Positions 8,265-36,595 of a stretch of 38,324 nucleotides of DNA are shown here, piece after piece. Position numbers and translations under genes: made by a program. The DNA is from an uncultured Enterorhabdus sp. (GTDB lineage Bacteria > Actinomycetota > Coriobacteriia > Coriobacteriales > Eggerthellaceae). Location of the stretch: assembly GCA_947573925.1 (NCBI GenBank), contig CANPHS010000009.1, forward strand, positions 1 to 38,324, written 5' to 3'. The notes under the pieces are model-generated. The model saw only the letters and a program-made list of their open reading frames with translations. It had not been told where the DNA came from and ran no database searches. Each line of letters opens with the position of its first letter. Within the stretch, counting starts at the first letter, position 1.

Positions 8265-9512
8265 ATGACCAAGCGTCGCATTGTCGTTCTCGGCTCCACC
8301 GGCTCCATCGGCACCCAAACGTTGGATGTGGTGCGCCAGCATGGCGACCAGCTGGAGATTGTGGGCCTGGCCGTGCATGGCCGCGTGGACGAGCTGCTGT
8401 CCCAGGCGCGGGAATTCGGCGTGTGCCACCTGGCCGTGGGCGACCCGACCCTGGCCGACGACCCGCGTTGCGATGAGGGCCGCACCCTCGTGCGCGAGAT
8501 GGCGACCGCGTCGGGCGCGGACGATGCCTCCTTCGGCGTGGGGCCCGAGGCCGTGGCGGCTCTGGCGACCCTGCCCGAGGCCGACGTGGTGGTGAACGCC
8601 CTGGTGGGCGCTGCCGGCCTGCGGGCGAGTTACGACACGCTGGCCGCCGGCAAAGTGCTGGCCCTGGCCAACAAGGAGTCCCTCGTGGTGGGCGGCGACC
8701 TCATCATGCCCCTGGCGGCCCGGGTAGACGCCGAGCGCCGCGCGGCGGGGCTGGCCCCGGCCACCGGTCCGGCGGGGGCCCTCATGCCCATCGATTCCGA
8801 GCACGGGGCCATCTACCAGTGCCTGCTGGGCGAGAACGTCCGCGAGGTGTCGAAGCTGTGGGTGACGGCTTCGGGCGGCCCCTTCCGTGGACGCACCCGC
8901 GACGAGCTTGTCGGCATCACACCGGCCCAGGCCTTGGCGCACCCCACGTGGAACATGGGGGCGAAGATATCCATCGACTCCTCCACCCTCATGAACAAGG
9001 GCCTCGAGGTGATCGAGGCGCACCACCTGTTCGCCATGGACTACGACAAGATCGAGGTGGTGGTGCAGCCCCAGAGCGCCATCCACTCCATGGTGGAATT
9101 CACCGACGGATCGGTGAAGGCCCACCTCGGCACCACCGACATGCGCATCCCCATCCAGTTCGCCCTGTCCTACCCCGATCGGTGGGAGGCCCCCGTAGCG
9201 CCGCTGGACTTCCGCACCCTGGGCACCCTGGAGTTCGCGGCCCCCGATACGGACACCTTCCGCTGTCTGGCCTTGGCTCGCCATGCCGGCAGCGTGGGGG
9301 GCACGCTGCCGGCGGTGATGAACGCCGCCAACGAGGTGGCTGTGGCCGCCTTCTTGGCCGAGCAGATCGCCTACCTGGACATTGCCGCCTGCGTGGAGGC
9401 CGCGATGGACGCCCACGAGCGGGAAGGCGTGCAGGTCGTGGAATCCCTCGACCAGCTGGAGGCCGTGGACCGGTGGGCCCGCGCTTTCGCCCGCTCGTGG
9501 TGCGCCGCCTAG
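8265..9512 (+). CDS. dxr: 1-deoxy-D-xylulose 5-phosphate reductoisomerase
   Basis: 415-residue NADPH-dependent enzyme of the MEP isoprenoid pathway, converting DXP to MEP. The N-terminal dinucleotide site is GSTGSIG (10-16); NKESLVVGG, PIDSEH (metal-binding Asp/Glu) and the flexible-loop region WVTASGGPF are present. ATG 8265 follows AAAGG at 8253-8257. There are 40 bases between cdsA and dxr, so they are likely cotranscribed. Its TAG stop (9510-9512) shares the palindrome CTAG with the stop of the convergent surface-protein gene, with no terminator visible between them. Confidence 0.96.
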   Translation: MTKRRIVVLGSTGSIGTQTLDVVRQHGDQLEIVGLAVHGRVDELLSQAREFGVCHLAVGDPTLADDPRCDEGRTLVREMATASGADDASFGVGPEAVAALATLPEADVVVNALVGAAGLRASYDTLAAGKVLALANKESLVVGGDLIMPLAARVDAERRAAGLAPATGPAGALMPIDSEHGAIYQCLLGENVREVSKLWVTASGGPFRGRTRDELVGITPAQALAHPTWNMGAKISIDSSTLMNKGLEVIEAHHLFAMDYDKIEVVVQPQSAIHSMVEFTDGSVKAHLGTTDMRIPIQFALSYPDRWEAPVAPLDFRTLGTLEFAAPDTDTFRCLALARHAGSVGGTLPAVMNAANEVAVAAFLAEQIAYLDIAACVEAAMDAHEREGVQVVESLDQLEAVDRWARAFARSWCAA

Positions 9513-12500
9513 CGGGCGCTTCGGCGCTTCCGGGCCAGGGCGAGGACGACACCGCTGACGACGGCCATGGCTGCCAGGCCGGCGGCCGCTAAGCCGAGGA
9601 CGTCGCCCGTTTGGGCCAAGGGCCGTACCACCGACGTTCCGCGATCGGAGCCCGGGCCGCGCTCTAGGCCGGGTTCGGCGTCTTCCTCTGCGGGCCCAGG
9701 CTGTTCCGGCTCCTCGTAGCTGCCCGTGGGCGGCAGGGGAAAGTCCGGGTTCCCGTAGGTGACCGTTTGGCCCTCGTCGTTCAGGTCGGCGTGCAGGGCC
9801 ACCTCCACGTCGTTGTGGTAGAGCGACTCGAACACGACGAGGCTCACTCCTTCCAAATCGAGTCCGGGTACGGTGATCTCCATATCCACCGAGCCGTTGG
9901 CCTCTTCGGGAACGAAGGTCTTTTCCACGGAGACGATCTGGCCGTCTGCGGTCATGGGCTCGCCCGTGGCCTTGTTCATGAGCAGCGCCACCATGCGGTA
10001 CTCGAACCCGGGGGTGAGCCCCTGGTAGGTGACGGTGTCGATGATGGTCACTGTTTCAGCCGGAACACCTTCGTGGGTGCCGCTGACGCTGTCTTTCGCC
10101 AGCGTCTTAATGGCGATGGGATTCACGGTGATGGTCTGGCGCAGGTCGTTCAGGTCGCGGTGGGCTGCCTCTTCTATCCCGTTGCGCCTCAAGGTCTCGA
10201 ACACGACCAGCTCTCGGGTCTCGCGAATCTCCGAGGCGTCGAAGGAGAGGGGCACGTTCACGTAGCCGCTCGTGTCGTCAGGGGTGAACTCCAGGGTGTG
10301 TGCCACGGGCTGTCCGTTGGCGCAGAAGGGCTCGCCGGTGGTTTTGTCCATGAGGACGGCCTCCAGCGTGTAGGTCACACCGGGCTCAAGTCCCTCGTAA
10401 GTGACGCGGTCGACGATAGATGCCTCGCTGTCGGCGCTGATGACGGCATCGGAAAGGTCGTTGCTCAGGCCATCGTAGGCATCGGTGGCAATGGTCGCGC
10501 GGCCCTGGGTGGTGTTGTTCAGGGTGCCGATGTCGATGGTCTGGTCGTCGTCGGTTTCTCCCACGACAACCTCGTCGCGAATCATCTGGAAGATGGCATT
10601 GGCCGGGCAGGGCAGTTCCTCCAGCTCGTAGGTGTCGAAGGGCAGTGCGCCCAAACCGTCGTGCACCGTTACGGGTGCGCCGCCGGCACCGAGCCCGAAC
10701 CAGATGCCGGCAGTGCCGTCCAGGGCCTCCATGTCCACCACGAGAGGCATGCGGAACGAGCCGTCCTCGGCGCGGAACTGGGCGTCGTTGCCGTTGGTGT
10801 TCACGGAATGGGGCCGGGCCAACGTGGACTCCGTCGAGGCGAGGCCGTTCTTGTCGGTGACGAGGATGTGCCACTCGCCGGTGGTCTTCGACGTGAGCTT
10901 GAAAGGGATGCCGGCCAGCTTGGCGCCGCCGTCGACGCGCTTCAGGAAGCGCAAATCGCCACGCATCACCTGGTCGGTCACGGTGTCGCCGTCCTCTTCG
11001 GGGTTGAAGACGTTCACGGCCTCGGTGGCGCCGCCGTCATCGGAGATGTGGCGCACGTGGACGGTGCCATCGAGACGGTAGCCTTCCGGCGCCTTCACCT
11101 CTTGGATGGTGTAGGTGCCCAGCGGCATGGCGGGGGTGCCGTCTTGCAGGTGGTAGAAGGCCGGGCCCTCCACCTTGTAGGGCAGTTCGGTCTGCACGCC
11201 CGCGGCGTCCTCATGCATGAACGTGCCCTCGCCCTGCTTCAGCGAGAAGATGCCCTCGTCGTTGGTGCGCACGACCCAGCTTGCCTTGGGGGTCCGTCCG
11301 GCCACAGCCTCGGCGGTGGCGCCTTCCACGTCGTAGTAATTGATGCGGAAGTGGGCATCGCCCAAGGTGGCGCCGCCCTGGGGGTGCGCCGTGCCGGATT
11401 GGGCATCCTTCTTGTGCAGGAAGATGTCCAGCGGGTTCAGCTTGGCCGCATCGGTGACGGCCGTGCCGTTCACGCGGGCGGTGGCATCGGCGGTAACCTT
11501 CACCGGATACACGCCGGGGTCAATGGCATAGCCTTTCACGGGACCTTCGATCTCCTTTACCCAATAGGAGCCCAAAGGCACGGAATCGAGGCGAGCGTAG
11601 CCGTGTTCGTTTTCGTCGAGGGTTGTCTGCAGGGTATCGTAGAGAATCGTGCAGGCAGCATCTTCGTATACGCCGTAGGTTGCTCCTTCGAGATGGTAAC
11701 ACTGGTTGCCTGCGGTCAGCCCGGGGTTGTTGGACTGCTTCAGCAGGTCGATGGACCCGGTGCAGGGCACATCGGCGAAGGTGACGGTGGAAGGTTCGTC
11801 CGCGTCGGAGGTGGGCTCGACGGTCAGCGGCTTGATGTCGCTCGCGAGCCGGTACCCTTTGGGCGCGAACAGTTCGACCACGAAATAGTCGCCGCCCTCG
11901 ATGTCCTCGACAATAGCACTCTTTCCGTCTTCTTTCGTGGTAAACACGATATCGGCAGCATCGCGGGCCCAATCGCGGGCCTCGCGCCAGGTCTCCCAGG
12001 TGCCGGCCTCGGCCTTGGCCAGGGCCTTCTGGGCATCGCTCTTCTTGGCGAAGGCGGCGAATACGGCGTTCTTGAAGCTGTAGCGGTCGTTGCCCTCGGT
12101 CATGGCAGGATCGGTGGATTCCTTCACCAGCTGGGCGGAGCCGGTGTTGGGCGGGGCCACGAGCAGATAGCCCACCACGTCTTGGAAGGTCTGGCCTGTG
12201 GAGGCCGACTGGGTATCGAACTTGTAGTAGAACTTAAGCCAGCCCTGGTACTTCGACTGGGAGCCGGTATAGGCGCCCTTGTACACGATGTAGTTGTCGC
12301 CGCTGTGGTTCGCCATGATGGCACCGTGGCCATTGGCGACACCGGCAGAACCGCAGGTGCCATGGACCATGGCCTTGTTGGCGGGGGCCTCGCCGGGGCC
12401 ATAGCCCGCATCTTGGAACGAACCGCCGCGGGTGACGTAGCGGGCGCGGTAGCTGTCGCCGCTGCGGGAAATGGCGAAGTCGGTCTCATCGCCCAAGCGG

Positions 12501-13384
12501 GCGGCAATGGTTTCAGTGAAGAACGCTTCCACTGTTTCATCGTAGGAGCTGTGGGTGGTCTTCAACACGGAAGACTTCCATTCTGTGCCCGTGGAAACGC
12601 CGTTCTTGTAGTCCTGGGTGGTGCCAAAGAAGGCGCCGAAACCGTAGGAGCCCAGCATATCTTCGGGAAAGCCGTAGGCGTGCTGCTTATGGCGCTGGTC
12701 CACATCGAAGTTTTCCAGGCGTGTGTAGGCGTTCAGCTGGTAGCGTTTGTTCGCTGTGCCGGGGAAGGCGCCGGCCCGAGATGCCTTCAGGGGCGAAGGC
12801 TCGGCGTGTTCGGCCTGAGCCACCACGTCGTCAATGTCGGATTGGAAGGTGATGTCCCCTCCGGCGAAGTCCACGGTGACATCGCTCGTGTCAAGGTCGG
12901 CGGTGACGTAGCGTTCGTAGGCCTTGTGGGCCGGCGAGAGCTCGAAGACGATGCCGAGGGTGTCGGCTGTGTCCCGGTAGGCGACGGGAACGGTCACGAT
13001 GCCCGTGGCGGCATCGTAGGTGCACTGATCGGTGATGTCCCGCTGCCGGTCGTTGAAGGTGGCGTAGTGCTCGTACACGGCGAAAGACAGACGCTCCCCG
13101 TAGGAAAGGGCGTCGGGGTCGTCGTTCACCTTCACGTACAGCGCATCGCCTCGCTCGGCGAAGGGCGCGTCGTAGGTGGCGAAGTCGACGGTTTCGTAGG
13201 CGGCGTCTTTGAAGTGCAGGACCACGGAGGCAAACCCCTGGTTTTCGGGGGCCGCCTGGGCCTCGGTGGGCTGCATGGTGAGGGGCAAGAGGCCGAAGGT
13301 GAGCAGGAACGCGATGATCATGCTCATTATGGTGCGGCCGCGGGGCGATGCGGATCGCGCGGGGGCTGGACGGATGTCATCCAT
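9509..13384 (-). CDS. Sortase-anchored surface protein with SpaA-like and VaFE repeat domains
   Basis: 1291-residue cell-surface protein. Signal/anchor hydrophobic segment at about 20-44. Residues ~45-410 form an N-terminal region with few family cues (one Cys in HGTCGSAG near 344). It is followed by about four SpaA/Cna-B-like pilin domains (starting near 414, 540, 650 and 810) with E-box-like ends such as YFVVELFAPKGY and YTIQEVKAPEGY. Two VaFE repeats (about 985-1215) follow, with VVFETL and VVFESL. The C-terminus is LAQTGD (from 1256), a hydrophobic span and a basic tail: a LAXTG-type sorting signal, as used by class E sortases. ATG 13384 has AAAGGAG upstream. It likely forms isopeptide/ester-stabilised stalks for adhesion. 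No sortase gene is nearby. Confidence 0.9.
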   Translation of the reverse strand: MDDIRPAPARSASPRGRTIMSMIIAFLLTFGLLPLTMQPTEAQAAPENQGFASVVLHFKDAAYETVDFATYDAPFAERGDALYVKVNDDPDALSYGERLSFAVYEHYATFNDRQRDITDQCTYDAATGIVTVPVAYRDTADTLGIVFELSPAHKAYERYVTADLDTSDVTVDFAGGDITFQSDIDDVVAQAEHAEPSPLKASRAGAFPGTANKRYQLNAYTRLENFDVDQRHKQHAYGFPEDMLGSYGFGAFFGTTQDYKNGVSTGTEWKSSVLKTTHSSYDETVEAFFTETIAARLGDETDFAISRSGDSYRARYVTRGGSFQDAGYGPGEAPANKAMVHGTCGSAGVANGHGAIMANHSGDNYIVYKGAYTGSQSKYQGWLKFYYKFDTQSASTGQTFQDVVGYLLVAPPNTGSAQLVKESTDPAMTEGNDRYSFKNAVFAAFAKKSDAQKALAKAEAGTWETWREARDWARDAADIVFTTKEDGKSAIVEDIEGGDYFVVELFAPKGYRLASDIKPLTVEPTSDADEPSTVTFADVPCTGSIDLLKQSNNPGLTAGNQCYHLEGATYGVYEDAACTILYDTLQTTLDENEHGYARLDSVPLGSYWVKEIEGPVKGYAIDPGVYPVKVTADATARVNGTAVTDAAKLNPLDIFLHKKDAQSGTAHPQGGATLGDAHFRINYYDVEGATAEAVAGRTPKASWVVRTNDEGIFSLKQGEGTFMHEDAAGVQTELPYKVEGPAFYHLQDGTPAMPLGTYTIQEVKAPEGYRLDGTVHVRHISDDGGATEAVNVFNPEEDGDTVTDQVMRGDLRFLKRVDGGAKLAGIPFKLTSKTTGEWHILVTDKNGLASTESTLARPHSVNTNGNDAQFRAEDGSFRMPLVVDMEALDGTAGIWFGLGAGGAPVTVHDGLGALPFDTYELEELPCPANAIFQMIRDEVVVGETDDDQTIDIGTLNNTTQGRATIATDAYDGLSNDLSDAVISADSEASIVDRVTYEGLEPGVTYTLEAVLMDKTTGEPFCANGQPVAHTLEFTPDDTSGYVNVPLSFDASEIRETRELVVFETLRRNGIEEAAHRDLNDLRQTITVNPIAIKTLAKDSVSGTHEGVPAETVTIIDTVTYQGLTPGFEYRMVALLMNKATGEPMTADGQIVSVEKTFVPEEANGSVDMEITVPGLDLEGVSLVVFESLYHNDVEVALHADLNDEGQTVTYGNPDFPLPPTGSYEEPEQPGPAEEDAEPGLERGPGSDRGTSVVRPLAQTGDVLGLAAAGLAAMAVVSGVVLALARKRRSAR

Positions 13385-13578
13385 GGGAACTCCTTTCTGC
13401 GCGAACCGGGGCCGCGCGGGACGGGTGGGGCACGTCAGATGTCCGGCCGCAGAGCATGACGTCCGAGTCTCGCAGGGGGTGTGCCATCAAAAGGGTTGAC
13501 GTATGGCGGCCGAAACATCTGACGCTTAGCAGCCTAGAGCCGCAAAACCGTCAAAAGGGTTCCGCAATGTCCCCCTGG

Positions 13579-13666
13579 GAGCCGTCGCAGAGCCGCCTGA
13601 AAACCGTTCCCCAACCGCCGTGGAGCCGTCCGGGAACCGTCGCGAAACCGTCCCAGCGCCGTCGTG
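13579..13666. repeat. Eight-unit 11-base periodic array
   Basis: The trinucleotide CCG starts at 13582, 13593, 13604, 13615, 13626, 13637, 13648 and 13659, exactly 11 bases apart. The unit is approximately RRCCGTCNNNN (for example GAGCCGTCGCA, AAACCGTTCCC). The phase is lost on both sides. The region is non-coding, upstream of rseP and of the divergent surface protein. Confidence 0.75.
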
Positions 13667-13930
13667 GCGTGCCAAAGCCCTGGTGGCGAGGGGCATGCTG
13701 GCGCCGCGCTCTGCCGGTTGCGAAGGGGAGCCTGCTTCGGCGGGCGCCCCGACCACCGAAGGGCGACGCTGTGTCGGTGAGCGACGATTGCGAAGGGCCG
13801 CGCCGCGACGGCCGGGCGAGGGCCCCTTCGGCACCGACCCCGCGGCCTCAACTGTGGAGCCGTCGTCGGCACCTTGTAGTTATTTCGCGCGTACAAAAGG
13901 GCGAAAAGGGCGCGGACGTCTGTTCCTTCC

Positions 13931-14007: not shown

Positions 14008-15120
14008 GTGGATATTCTCATTATGGTCGTCTGCGCCGTCATCACCATCGGCTTCCTCGTGTTCATCCACGAGGGCGGCCACTACCTGGCGGCCCGCGCC
14101 TTCGGTGTGCGCGTCACGGAATTCATGCTCGGCTTGCCGGGCCCCTCGGTGGGCTTCACCCACGGCGAGACGCGCTTCGGCGTGACGGCGGTGCCCCTCG
14201 GCGGCTACGCGAAGGTGTGCGGCATGGAGGCCGGCCCGATGGAGCCGCACCTGCAGGAGGTGCTGGCCTCGGTGTACCGCCGCGGCACCGCCAACATGGA
14301 GGACGTGGCCCGGGATTGCGGCATTTCCGACGATGCGGCCTACAACGCCCTGGAGGAGCTCGTGGAATGGGGCAGCGTCATGGGGCCGACCAAGGCCGAC
14401 GAGTACAACACTTACCGCGCCCCGCGCGTGGCCCCCACGAAGGGCCAGCTGAAGCGGGCCGCCAAGGCCGGCAAGCCGGCACCGGCCGCCTACCAGCTGG
14501 GCGAGGCGCGCCCCGTGGACGACCCGCGCGCCCTCTACGAGAGCGAATACCGGCAGCAGTACCGCTCGCTGCCCTTCTGGAAGCGCTCGATCATTCTGCT
14601 GGCGGGCATCGCCATGAACCTGCTGTTCGCCATGCTCGTGTTCATCCTCGTGTTCTCGGTCATCGGTTTCCAAGTGCAGCACCCCGAGACCGGCGAGATC
14701 ACCACCATCCACGCCTCGGTGCTCCAGGCGTTGCAGGCCGGCTTCATGTACATCGGCATGGTGATCCAGGCGGTGGCGGGCCTGTTCAACCCGGCCACGG
14801 CGGCCCAGACGGTGTCCGATTCCACGTCCATCGTGGGCATCGCCGTCATGTCGAAGGACTTCTTCCAGGCGGGCCTCGTGCAGGGGCTGGAGTTCATGGC
14901 CATGATCTCGGTGTCCCTGGGCATTATGAACCTGCTGCCCATCCCGCCGCTCGACGGCGGCCGCTTCGTCGTGGAGATCTTCCAGAAGGGCACCCGCAAG
15001 ACGGTGTCCCAGAAGGCCATGAACTACATGTCCATGGCCGGTATGGCCCTGTTCCTCGGCTTCTTCGTCATCATGCTGAACCAGGACATCCAGCGCTTCG
15101 TCTTCGGGAATTGGGGGTAG
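14008..15120 (+). CDS. rseP: Site-2 protease family membrane metalloprotease (RseP-like)
   Basis: 370-residue intramembrane zinc protease of the M50 family. Zinc ligands are H21 and H25 in HEGGH, with third-ligand motif LLPIPPLDGGRF (D316). Membrane spans are at about 1-20, 194-220, 243-262, 290-312 and 343-358. The expected PDZ domain is not visible. Instead residues ~83-126 (from LQEVLASVYRRGTANMEDV to LVEWGSVM) look like a small winged-helix fold, followed by a basic Ala/Lys linker to ~185. GTG 14008 is chosen for AAGGAG at 13994-13999. Known relatives cut anti-sigma factors or signal-peptide remnants; the target here is unknown. Confidence 0.88.
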   Translation: MDILIMVVCAVITIGFLVFIHEGGHYLAARAFGVRVTEFMLGLPGPSVGFTHGETRFGVTAVPLGGYAKVCGMEAGPMEPHLQEVLASVYRRGTANMEDVARDCGISDDAAYNALEELVEWGSVMGPTKADEYNTYRAPRVAPTKGQLKRAAKAGKPAPAAYQLGEARPVDDPRALYESEYRQQYRSLPFWKRSIILLAGIAMNLLFAMLVFILVFSVIGFQVQHPETGEITTIHASVLQALQAGFMYIGMVIQAVAGLFNPATAAQTVSDSTSIVGIAVMSKDFFQAGLVQGLEFMAMISVSLGIMNLLPIPPLDGGRFVVEIFQKGTRKTVSQKAMNYMSMAGMALFLGFFVIMLNQDIQRFVFGNWG

Positions 15121-24598: not shown

Positions 24599-24848
24599 AA
24601 CCCCTCCTGCCCCCTAATGCCCCATGAAAAGAAAATGGCGGGGAGAAAGTCCCCGCCCAAGGGTGGACCAGGGCCTTGCGGCCAGCCCAGAAACTGTAAT
24701 TACTTATACCATGGCGCTTCCTCCTAGGCAAGAATATTTTCCTTATGTGCAAAAATTCTTTACCTGTGGGCAAAGCTTTGTAGTTGCTTCTAATGGCGCA
24801 TGCGACTTAAGCCAATATTGCGACGGCTTAACCTATATCACAAGAAAA
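24599..24848. other. Non-coding stretch with remnant signals
   Basis: A hairpin GGCGGGGA / TCCCCGCC (24637-24657) with T-rich flank on the minus strand, and an isolated minus-strand AGGAGG followed 7 bases later by ATG GTA TAA (near 24713-24731), i.e. a ribosome site with no gene behind it. AT content is higher than in the surroundings. It looks like the scar of deleted genes. Confidence 0.5.
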
Positions 24849-36533: not shown

Positions 36534-36595
36534 TGGGACAGCTTGCCCGGCAAAGTGTCCCGAATGGGACAACTTACCCGGTAAAGTGTCCCAAA
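36534..36595. repeat. Two-unit 31-base palindromic tandem repeat
   Basis: Units begin at 36534 and 36565. Each is GGGACA...TGTCCC enclosing CTTGCCCGGCAAAG or CTTACCCGGTAAAG. The change G-C to A-T in the inner stem is compensated, so base pairing is kept. It starts right after the DUF4097 stop. Confidence 0.75.

Follow-up and report, generated by a model that had tools for sequence, protein, structure and literature searches.

Eight 11-bp units in the non-coding gap between a surface-protein gene and an M50 peptidase gene are probably the upstream activating element of a promoter that belongs to a competence regulon, and a putative activator would assemble on them cooperatively. They lie in a 38,324-nucleotide stretch of DNA from an uncultured Enterorhabdus sp., the whole of which is called the window here. 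DNA-uptake and recombination genes (comEA/EC, comF, dprA, ssb, recA, and pilus genes) carry this one common cis element, as the members of a regulon do, and the array, in its sequence context, would seem to be the master switch for natural competence in this bacterial group. Arrays of fixed geometry, built from a genus-specific unit, are conserved in front of this gene set; the regulator protein, its cooperativity, and the competence phenotype are what we infer.

The first-pass annotation had described the trinucleotide CCG recurring eight times at exactly 11-base spacing, and this was confirmed, with starts at 13582, 13593, 13604, 13615, 13626, 13637, 13648, and 13659. Eight at period 11 was the longest run of any single trinucleotide at any period from 7 to 30 in the whole window. 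In 200 dinucleotide-preserving shuffles of the whole window, the maximum run was 4 in 131 shuffles, 5 in 65, and 6 in 4, and it never exceeded 6. The unit RRCCGTC given in the same annotation is the commonest form, but only some copies match it in full (others read AGCCGCC, AACCGTT, AACCGCC, or CGCCGTC); the invariant part of the unit is CCG.

Read on the minus strand, the eight units (NNNN-GRCGGYN) are followed, after a fixed gap, by TTTGACGGTT-9 bp-TAnnnT, a predicted promoter directed toward the gene for a surface protein with SpaA and T-Q ester domains (Table 1). The promoter-proximal unit is part of the same element as the array and is one base out of register with it, since 34 bp separate this unit from the nearest array unit. 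The array had initially been linked to rseP, and the M50 protease gene does start about 340 bp downstream of it, at 14008. However, the attached promoter points the other way, to the divergent surface-protein gene, which starts at 13384; we therefore rejected rseP as the target.

Table 1. Features of the array-bearing intergenic region and its neighboring genes (window positions).
Feature	Position	Strand	Basis
Eight 11-bp units NNNNGRCGGYN, putative upstream activating element	13580..13667	-	Pattern and shuffles
Degenerate unit adjoining the array, CCCAGGGGGAC	13569..13579	-	GGG in 15-17 of 17 Adlercreutzia promoters
Promoter-proximal unit TTTTGACGGTT (AACCGTC, 13546-13552), overlapping the -35 region	13546..13556	-	ACGGTT in 16-17 of 17 promoters per base
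Predicted -10 hexamer TAGGCT, 9 bp past GACGGTT	13531..13536	-	TAnnnT in 17 promoters
5' leader, one long hairpin (predicted)	13424..13525	-	Folding and similar leader at the A. caecimuris orthologue
Shine-Dalgarno-like AAAGGAG of the surface-protein gene	13390..13396	-	Sequence
Surface protein, 1291 aa, SpaA (three stretches) and T-Q ester (two stretches), faced by the promoter	9509..13384	-	Pfam
M50 peptidase (rseP-like), facing away, neighbor only	14008..15120	+	Family search

Transcription of the surface-protein gene is predicted to start near 13524, giving a leader of about 140 nt whose hairpin has a minimum free energy of -54.4 kcal/mol (z -2.0). In the leader of the Adlercreutzia caecimuris orthologue (L051 5671-5766, minus strand), the outer stem is changed yet still complementary, and the inner part is conserved (CAACCCTTTTGAT...CCCTGCGAGA). 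This leader could be a riboswitch or another sensor; an Rfam search returned no family match for it and no known RNA near the array. Given the place of its gene in the competence regulon, the surface protein might act in DNA binding or in cell contact, which is a guess. A BLAST search of the intergenic region against plasmids gave no match. Elsewhere in the window, positions 24642-24689 (minus strand) matched DUF3800-XI RNA over the Rfam gathering score (58.3 bits), and positions 36534-36592 hold a 31-bp tandem pair (TGGGACAACTTACCCGGCAAAGTGTCCCGAA, 1.9 copies).

The same arrangement recurs in the rest of the genome. Amid scattered single matches, the pattern RCCG-N7-RCCG-N7-RCCG revealed four more 8-unit loci, on contigs C8, C110, C115, and C143, and a 6-unit variant on C137. 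At all five 8-unit loci, when read in the minus-type orientation (GACGGYT), a GGGAC/GGGAA block adjoins the array, TTTGACGGTT stands 34 bp (CGG to CGG) past the last unit, and a TAnnnT-like hexamer follows 9 bp on. A search of the 2.42-Mb genome with the promoter core alone, allowing up to three mismatches, found seven sites, compared with none for the reversed pattern used as a control; at the two sites beyond the five 8-unit loci, the array is short, with about two to three units. The genes downstream of these promoters are comF (C143), yraN and further down dprA (C110), rpsF-ssb (C115), cpaB and Tad pilus genes (C8), recA (C126), the surface-protein gene of the window, and, on C10, a gene whose start resembles PD-(D/E)XK proteins; these names were read from translations, and the surface protein alone was tested against Pfam. 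Since comEC lies at the very start of its contig (C89:1-1638), its promoter is absent from this assembly. The array on C137 (L014 4738-4803) is a good one without the usual promoter core, and a palindrome (GGGACACC...GGTGTCCCA) lies near the C8 array.

The first-pass annotation had proposed a search for the array in other genomes, and this search found array and promoter together in A. caecimuris (G002) and 11-bp arrays with other units elsewhere in the Eggerthellaceae. In A. caecimuris, the combined pattern occurred at 10 sites, compared with none for the control. These sites belong to comF, yraN-comM-dprA, recA, comEA-comEC, hicAB, cpaB/Tad, rpsF-ssb, two PD-(D/E)XK (PDDEXK_2) proteins, one of whose two matches fell under the Pfam cut-off, and the orthologous surface protein; comM, rpsF, ssb, and the Tad genes after cpaB were named from translations, with no Pfam match behind the names. 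A toxin-antitoxin (TA) module at L049 of this genome lies downstream of a competence-type array promoter. The window and A. caecimuris share the gene order dxr–surface protein–rseP–ispG (87, 73, 89, and 90% identity, respectively), with the array in the same gap. The promoter pattern had no match in several other Adlercreutzia genomes (G001, G004, G006, G007, and G008).

An alignment of 17 promoters revealed GACGGTT-nTGCGG-TAnnnT at fixed spacing, with GGGAC at a fixed distance; within TAnnnT, the first T was present in 15 promoters and the A and the last T in all 17. We also compared five orthologous arrays (surface protein, cpaB, yraN, rpsF, and comF) as 40 unit pairs, kept in 11-bp register from the promoter without gaps. 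The CGG positions were identical in 0.88, 0.97, and 0.88 of the pairs, and spacer positions 2-4 in 0.28-0.40. The possibility raised at the outset, that the units decay at random in related strains with no conservation of the period, was thus not borne out in A. caecimuris, where the core and the 11-bp register are kept and the spacers have diverged. As far as these aligned pairs tell, the pattern is one of selection on core and spacing and not of random decay. Several observations concern the individual units: the third unit from the promoter opens with GGGGA (GGGGARCGGTY) in every 8-unit array of the window genome (13602-13612 in the window), and CGGTTCGGGG recurs at set places in the A. caecimuris arrays, so the array units are not equivalent.

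Among other Eggerthellaceae, several genera have 11-bp arrays built from a different unit that is common to the cpaB, comEA, and comF promoters within one genome (TTCCGCTTGAT in G011, CGCGTTGGATC in G030, CGCTGGATCCG in G014, and TTTTTGCAAGG in G023). We examined upstream regions of cpaB (30), comEC/EA (31), and comF (the first 19 of the 26 comF loci listed) using a lag test with 13 lags and split ties; a lag of 22 was excluded, as were multiples of 3, because these are inflated by coding sequence. Lag 11 was the best in 15.2 of 30 cpaB regions (-450 to -30), 14.2 of 31 comEA regions, and 10.0 of 19 comF regions, against expected values of 2.3, 2.4, and 1.5; that is, it topped about half of the promoters, compared with 1 in 13 expected. 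In control stretches nearby, lag 11 scored 0.2 of 31 and 5.5 of 30, the latter (cpaB -945 to -525) being a mild excess over 2.3. A stricter rule left 14 of 32 Eggerthellaceae genomes with one or more array-like promoters and 18 with none. In order-level relatives, 3 of the 20 upstream regions compared (12 comEC and 8 cpaB) looked array-like, namely comEA of G037 and G051 and cpaB of G039. This distribution, with units that differ, suggests that the geometry is old and patchy and that its letters are not fixed.

The genome G011 (3.38 Mb in one contig) is especially rich in arrays: its unit pattern had 109 matches, compared with none for the control, at no fewer than 20 sites. Nine of these sites precede comEA-comEC, comF, cpaB, recA, yraN with a ComM-like gene, rpsF-ssb, and three others, which encode a DUF559 nuclease-like protein, a SpaA surface protein, and a putative NAD(P)HX dehydratase (named by look, with no Pfam test). 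Seven further sites (L208, L209, L214, L215, L216, L218, and L222) precede TA modules: three of the Gp49 type (one just under the cut-off), AbiEii, BrnT with a CopG-like partner (under the cut-off), RelB with a weak ParE-like partner, and a ribbon-helix-helix antitoxin with an unrecognized partner. At L221, the array stands before an uncharacterized gene pair, and at 3 of the 20 listed sites (L210, L211, and L217) it has no clear promoter or gene. L211 and L217 are good arrays lacking the usual promoter core; the L211 array may work in reverse, since a gene may start on its other side. Judged by eye, several of the TA operons and recA seem to retain their own ordinary promoter, located downstream of the array promoter and ahead of the gene.

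Among 19 scored arrays of G011, 10 had nine consecutive units, four had ten, one had eight, and four had four to seven. Since lengths of 9-10 prevail in G011 and the five long arrays of the window genome all have exactly 8 units, array length looks selected. In the alignment of the G011 promoters, we read the rows with a proper anchor, which nine of the 20 sequences (L208, L210, L211, L217, L220, L222, L223, comE, and comF) lacked; the promoter-proximal unit was GCTGGAT.

In the mechanism that we propose, a sequence-specific activator would occupy all the 11-bp units, oriented alike on each. With a unit length close to one helical turn, the protomers would be adjacent to one another on a single face of the DNA and assemble cooperatively, and the presence of eight or nine phased upstream sites likewise argues for cooperative assembly along one face. 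The assembly would run along the eight units and the degenerate ones as far as the promoter-proximal unit, which stands in for the -35 box; there it would recruit RNA polymerase in its housekeeping form to the TAnnnT -10. Activators that substitute for the -35 contact have this layout, with a unit at the -35 position before a housekeeping-type -10. Cooperative binding to one helix face had already been proposed in the first-pass annotation and is still the best reading, although the binding would now serve a promoter other than that of rseP. All array-bearing genes would come on together, including those for DNA uptake, the Tad pilus, recombination, nucleases, some TA modules, and the surface protein. 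A long array would make the response steep, so that expression would require active regulator above a threshold level. The position of the array and the gene set suggest activation rather than repression, and the best reading of the activator is that its specificity evolves fast on a fixed geometry. The surface protein and the TA modules are not classical competence genes and count against a competence role. A bolder proposal is that a new polymerizing regulator acts on about nine phased sites, its letters being rewritten in each genus, and that the same switch turns on several TA modules, which would tie DNA uptake to an arrest of growth or to the recipient's addiction; we offer it tentatively, with more doubt than belief.

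A response regulator of the OmpR/PhoB family is a rather unlikely alternative, in which the arrays would be PHO-box-like 11-bp direct repeats occupied by tandem dimers, possibly tying DNA uptake to phosphate limitation. Such repeats are the PHO-box geometry in Streptomyces, according to the available part of the source (PMC9019756), and the arrays are indeed 11-bp direct repeats with a core of about 7 bp, as in operators of this type. We compared part of the OmpR-type regulators (30 loci among the 80 matches listed in eight genomes, then 20 more, with partial coverage of G000 and G002), and among those compared, only groups B and C were common to six array genomes (G000, G002, G011, G018, G023, and G028). 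Neither group had a close match in G010, which is without comEC, cpaB, and comF; group A is present in this com-less genome, which speaks against it. The recognition-helix region of group C differs between Adlercreutzia and the others, which would fit a changing unit, but that of group B is identical across genomes with completely different units. Group C is probably the phosphate regulator, since its gene adjoins a histidine kinase gene and that of an ABC-transporter ATPase or an Na/Pi cotransporter; it is also found in G015, which had no array in its cpaB and comEA regions, and we saw no phosphate-uptake gene among the regulon members. The 22-bp alternation expected of dimers was not significant, the observed values being reached by 334 and 427 of 2000 unit shuffles.

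As the regulator, a small MerR-type protein that resembles BldC and coats direct repeats head to tail is improbable, although it offers the nearest known mechanism: in the portion of the BldC study available to us, asymmetric head-to-tail multimers form on varying numbers of repeats with one helical turn between protected tracts (PMC5859096). The NCBIfam model HTH_BldC (NF033787) had no match over the cut-off in 60 genomes and none at E 0.001 in the array-bearing G000, G002, and G011, and the BldC consensus AATTnnnn(C) is unlike the array units; a true BldC is unlikely here.

We give equally little weight to an alternative sigma factor (ComX/SigH-like) that would read GACGGTT as its -35, with the array being secondary. 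The fixed spacing of GACGGTT, nTGCGG, and TAnnnT in 17 promoters is what a sigma-factor regulon would have, but the -10 is of the housekeeping kind, eight phased upstream units would be superfluous, and the promoter-proximal unit of G011 has changed together with its array units. LytTR (ComE-like) sites are two helical turns apart; the arrays have a period of 11, not 21-22, and the LytTR profile did not discriminate, because such proteins occur in all 10 of 10 genomes, including the com-less G010.

DNA-uptake sequences are scattered in hundreds or more copies per genome. They, together with mobile or selfish (REP/MITE-like) repeats and simple slippage repeats, would account for similar repeats at many places in one genome, but we rejected these origins as very improbable because the copies share unit core and promoter and not flanks, because arrays lie at orthologous genes in two species with conserved cores and diverged spacers, and because just 7 to about 20 sites per genome (five 8-unit arrays, one of 6 units, and two short ones in the window genome) precede a coherent gene set.

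Activation of a competence regulon by a cooperatively assembling protein thus remains our preferred reading. A regulon-wide cis code would provide a gene list, a DNA bait for the regulator, and a prediction of transformable gut Coriobacteriia. The arrays also make a clean system for promoter logic, in which a near-fixed number of phased sites varies in sequence between genera, and, after Haemophilus influenzae, they add a second phylum in which TA modules have a promoter of the competence type; for H. influenzae, a competence-regulated TA operon is known from the accessible part of one report (PMC6957337).

Our literature searches found no paper on competence promoters of Coriobacteriia, and competence regulation in Actinomycetota is poorly understood according to the available sections of papers from 2021 and 2026 (PMC8467076 and PMC12849477). 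In the same sections, transformation of Micrococcus luteus, a member of this phylum, needs ComEA/EC and the Tad pilus, and its regulatory cascade is given as unknown; competence there is Tad/Flp-dependent, and no array is described for M. luteus in them (PMC8467076 and PMC12849477). At Streptomyces whiI and smeA-sffA, BldC binds cooperatively and head to tail to variable direct repeats one helical turn apart, as we infer here, but in the part of the study available those two promoters have 2-4 repeats, compared with 8-10 here, and BldC sites are AT-rich (PMC5859096). The PHO boxes of Streptomyces PhoP and other OmpR/PhoB sites resemble the arrays in being 11-bp direct repeats with a conserved core of about 7 bp, several in tandem upstream of a promoter; the arrays differ in their core, in having 8-10 uniform units as a rule, in their competence gene set, and in a unit that depends on the genus. 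As in the competence regulons of Bacillus and Streptococcus (ComK and ComX) and of Haemophilus (CRP-S/Sxy), DNA-uptake and recombination genes are under one cis element, but here the cis code is a phased array, the pilus is of the Tad kind instead of the type IV competence pilus, and up to seven TA modules are included in one genome. Direct-repeat activator sites and competence regulons are thus both known; as far as our literature searches go, their combination, the length and phasing of the arrays, and the changing letters of the unit are new.
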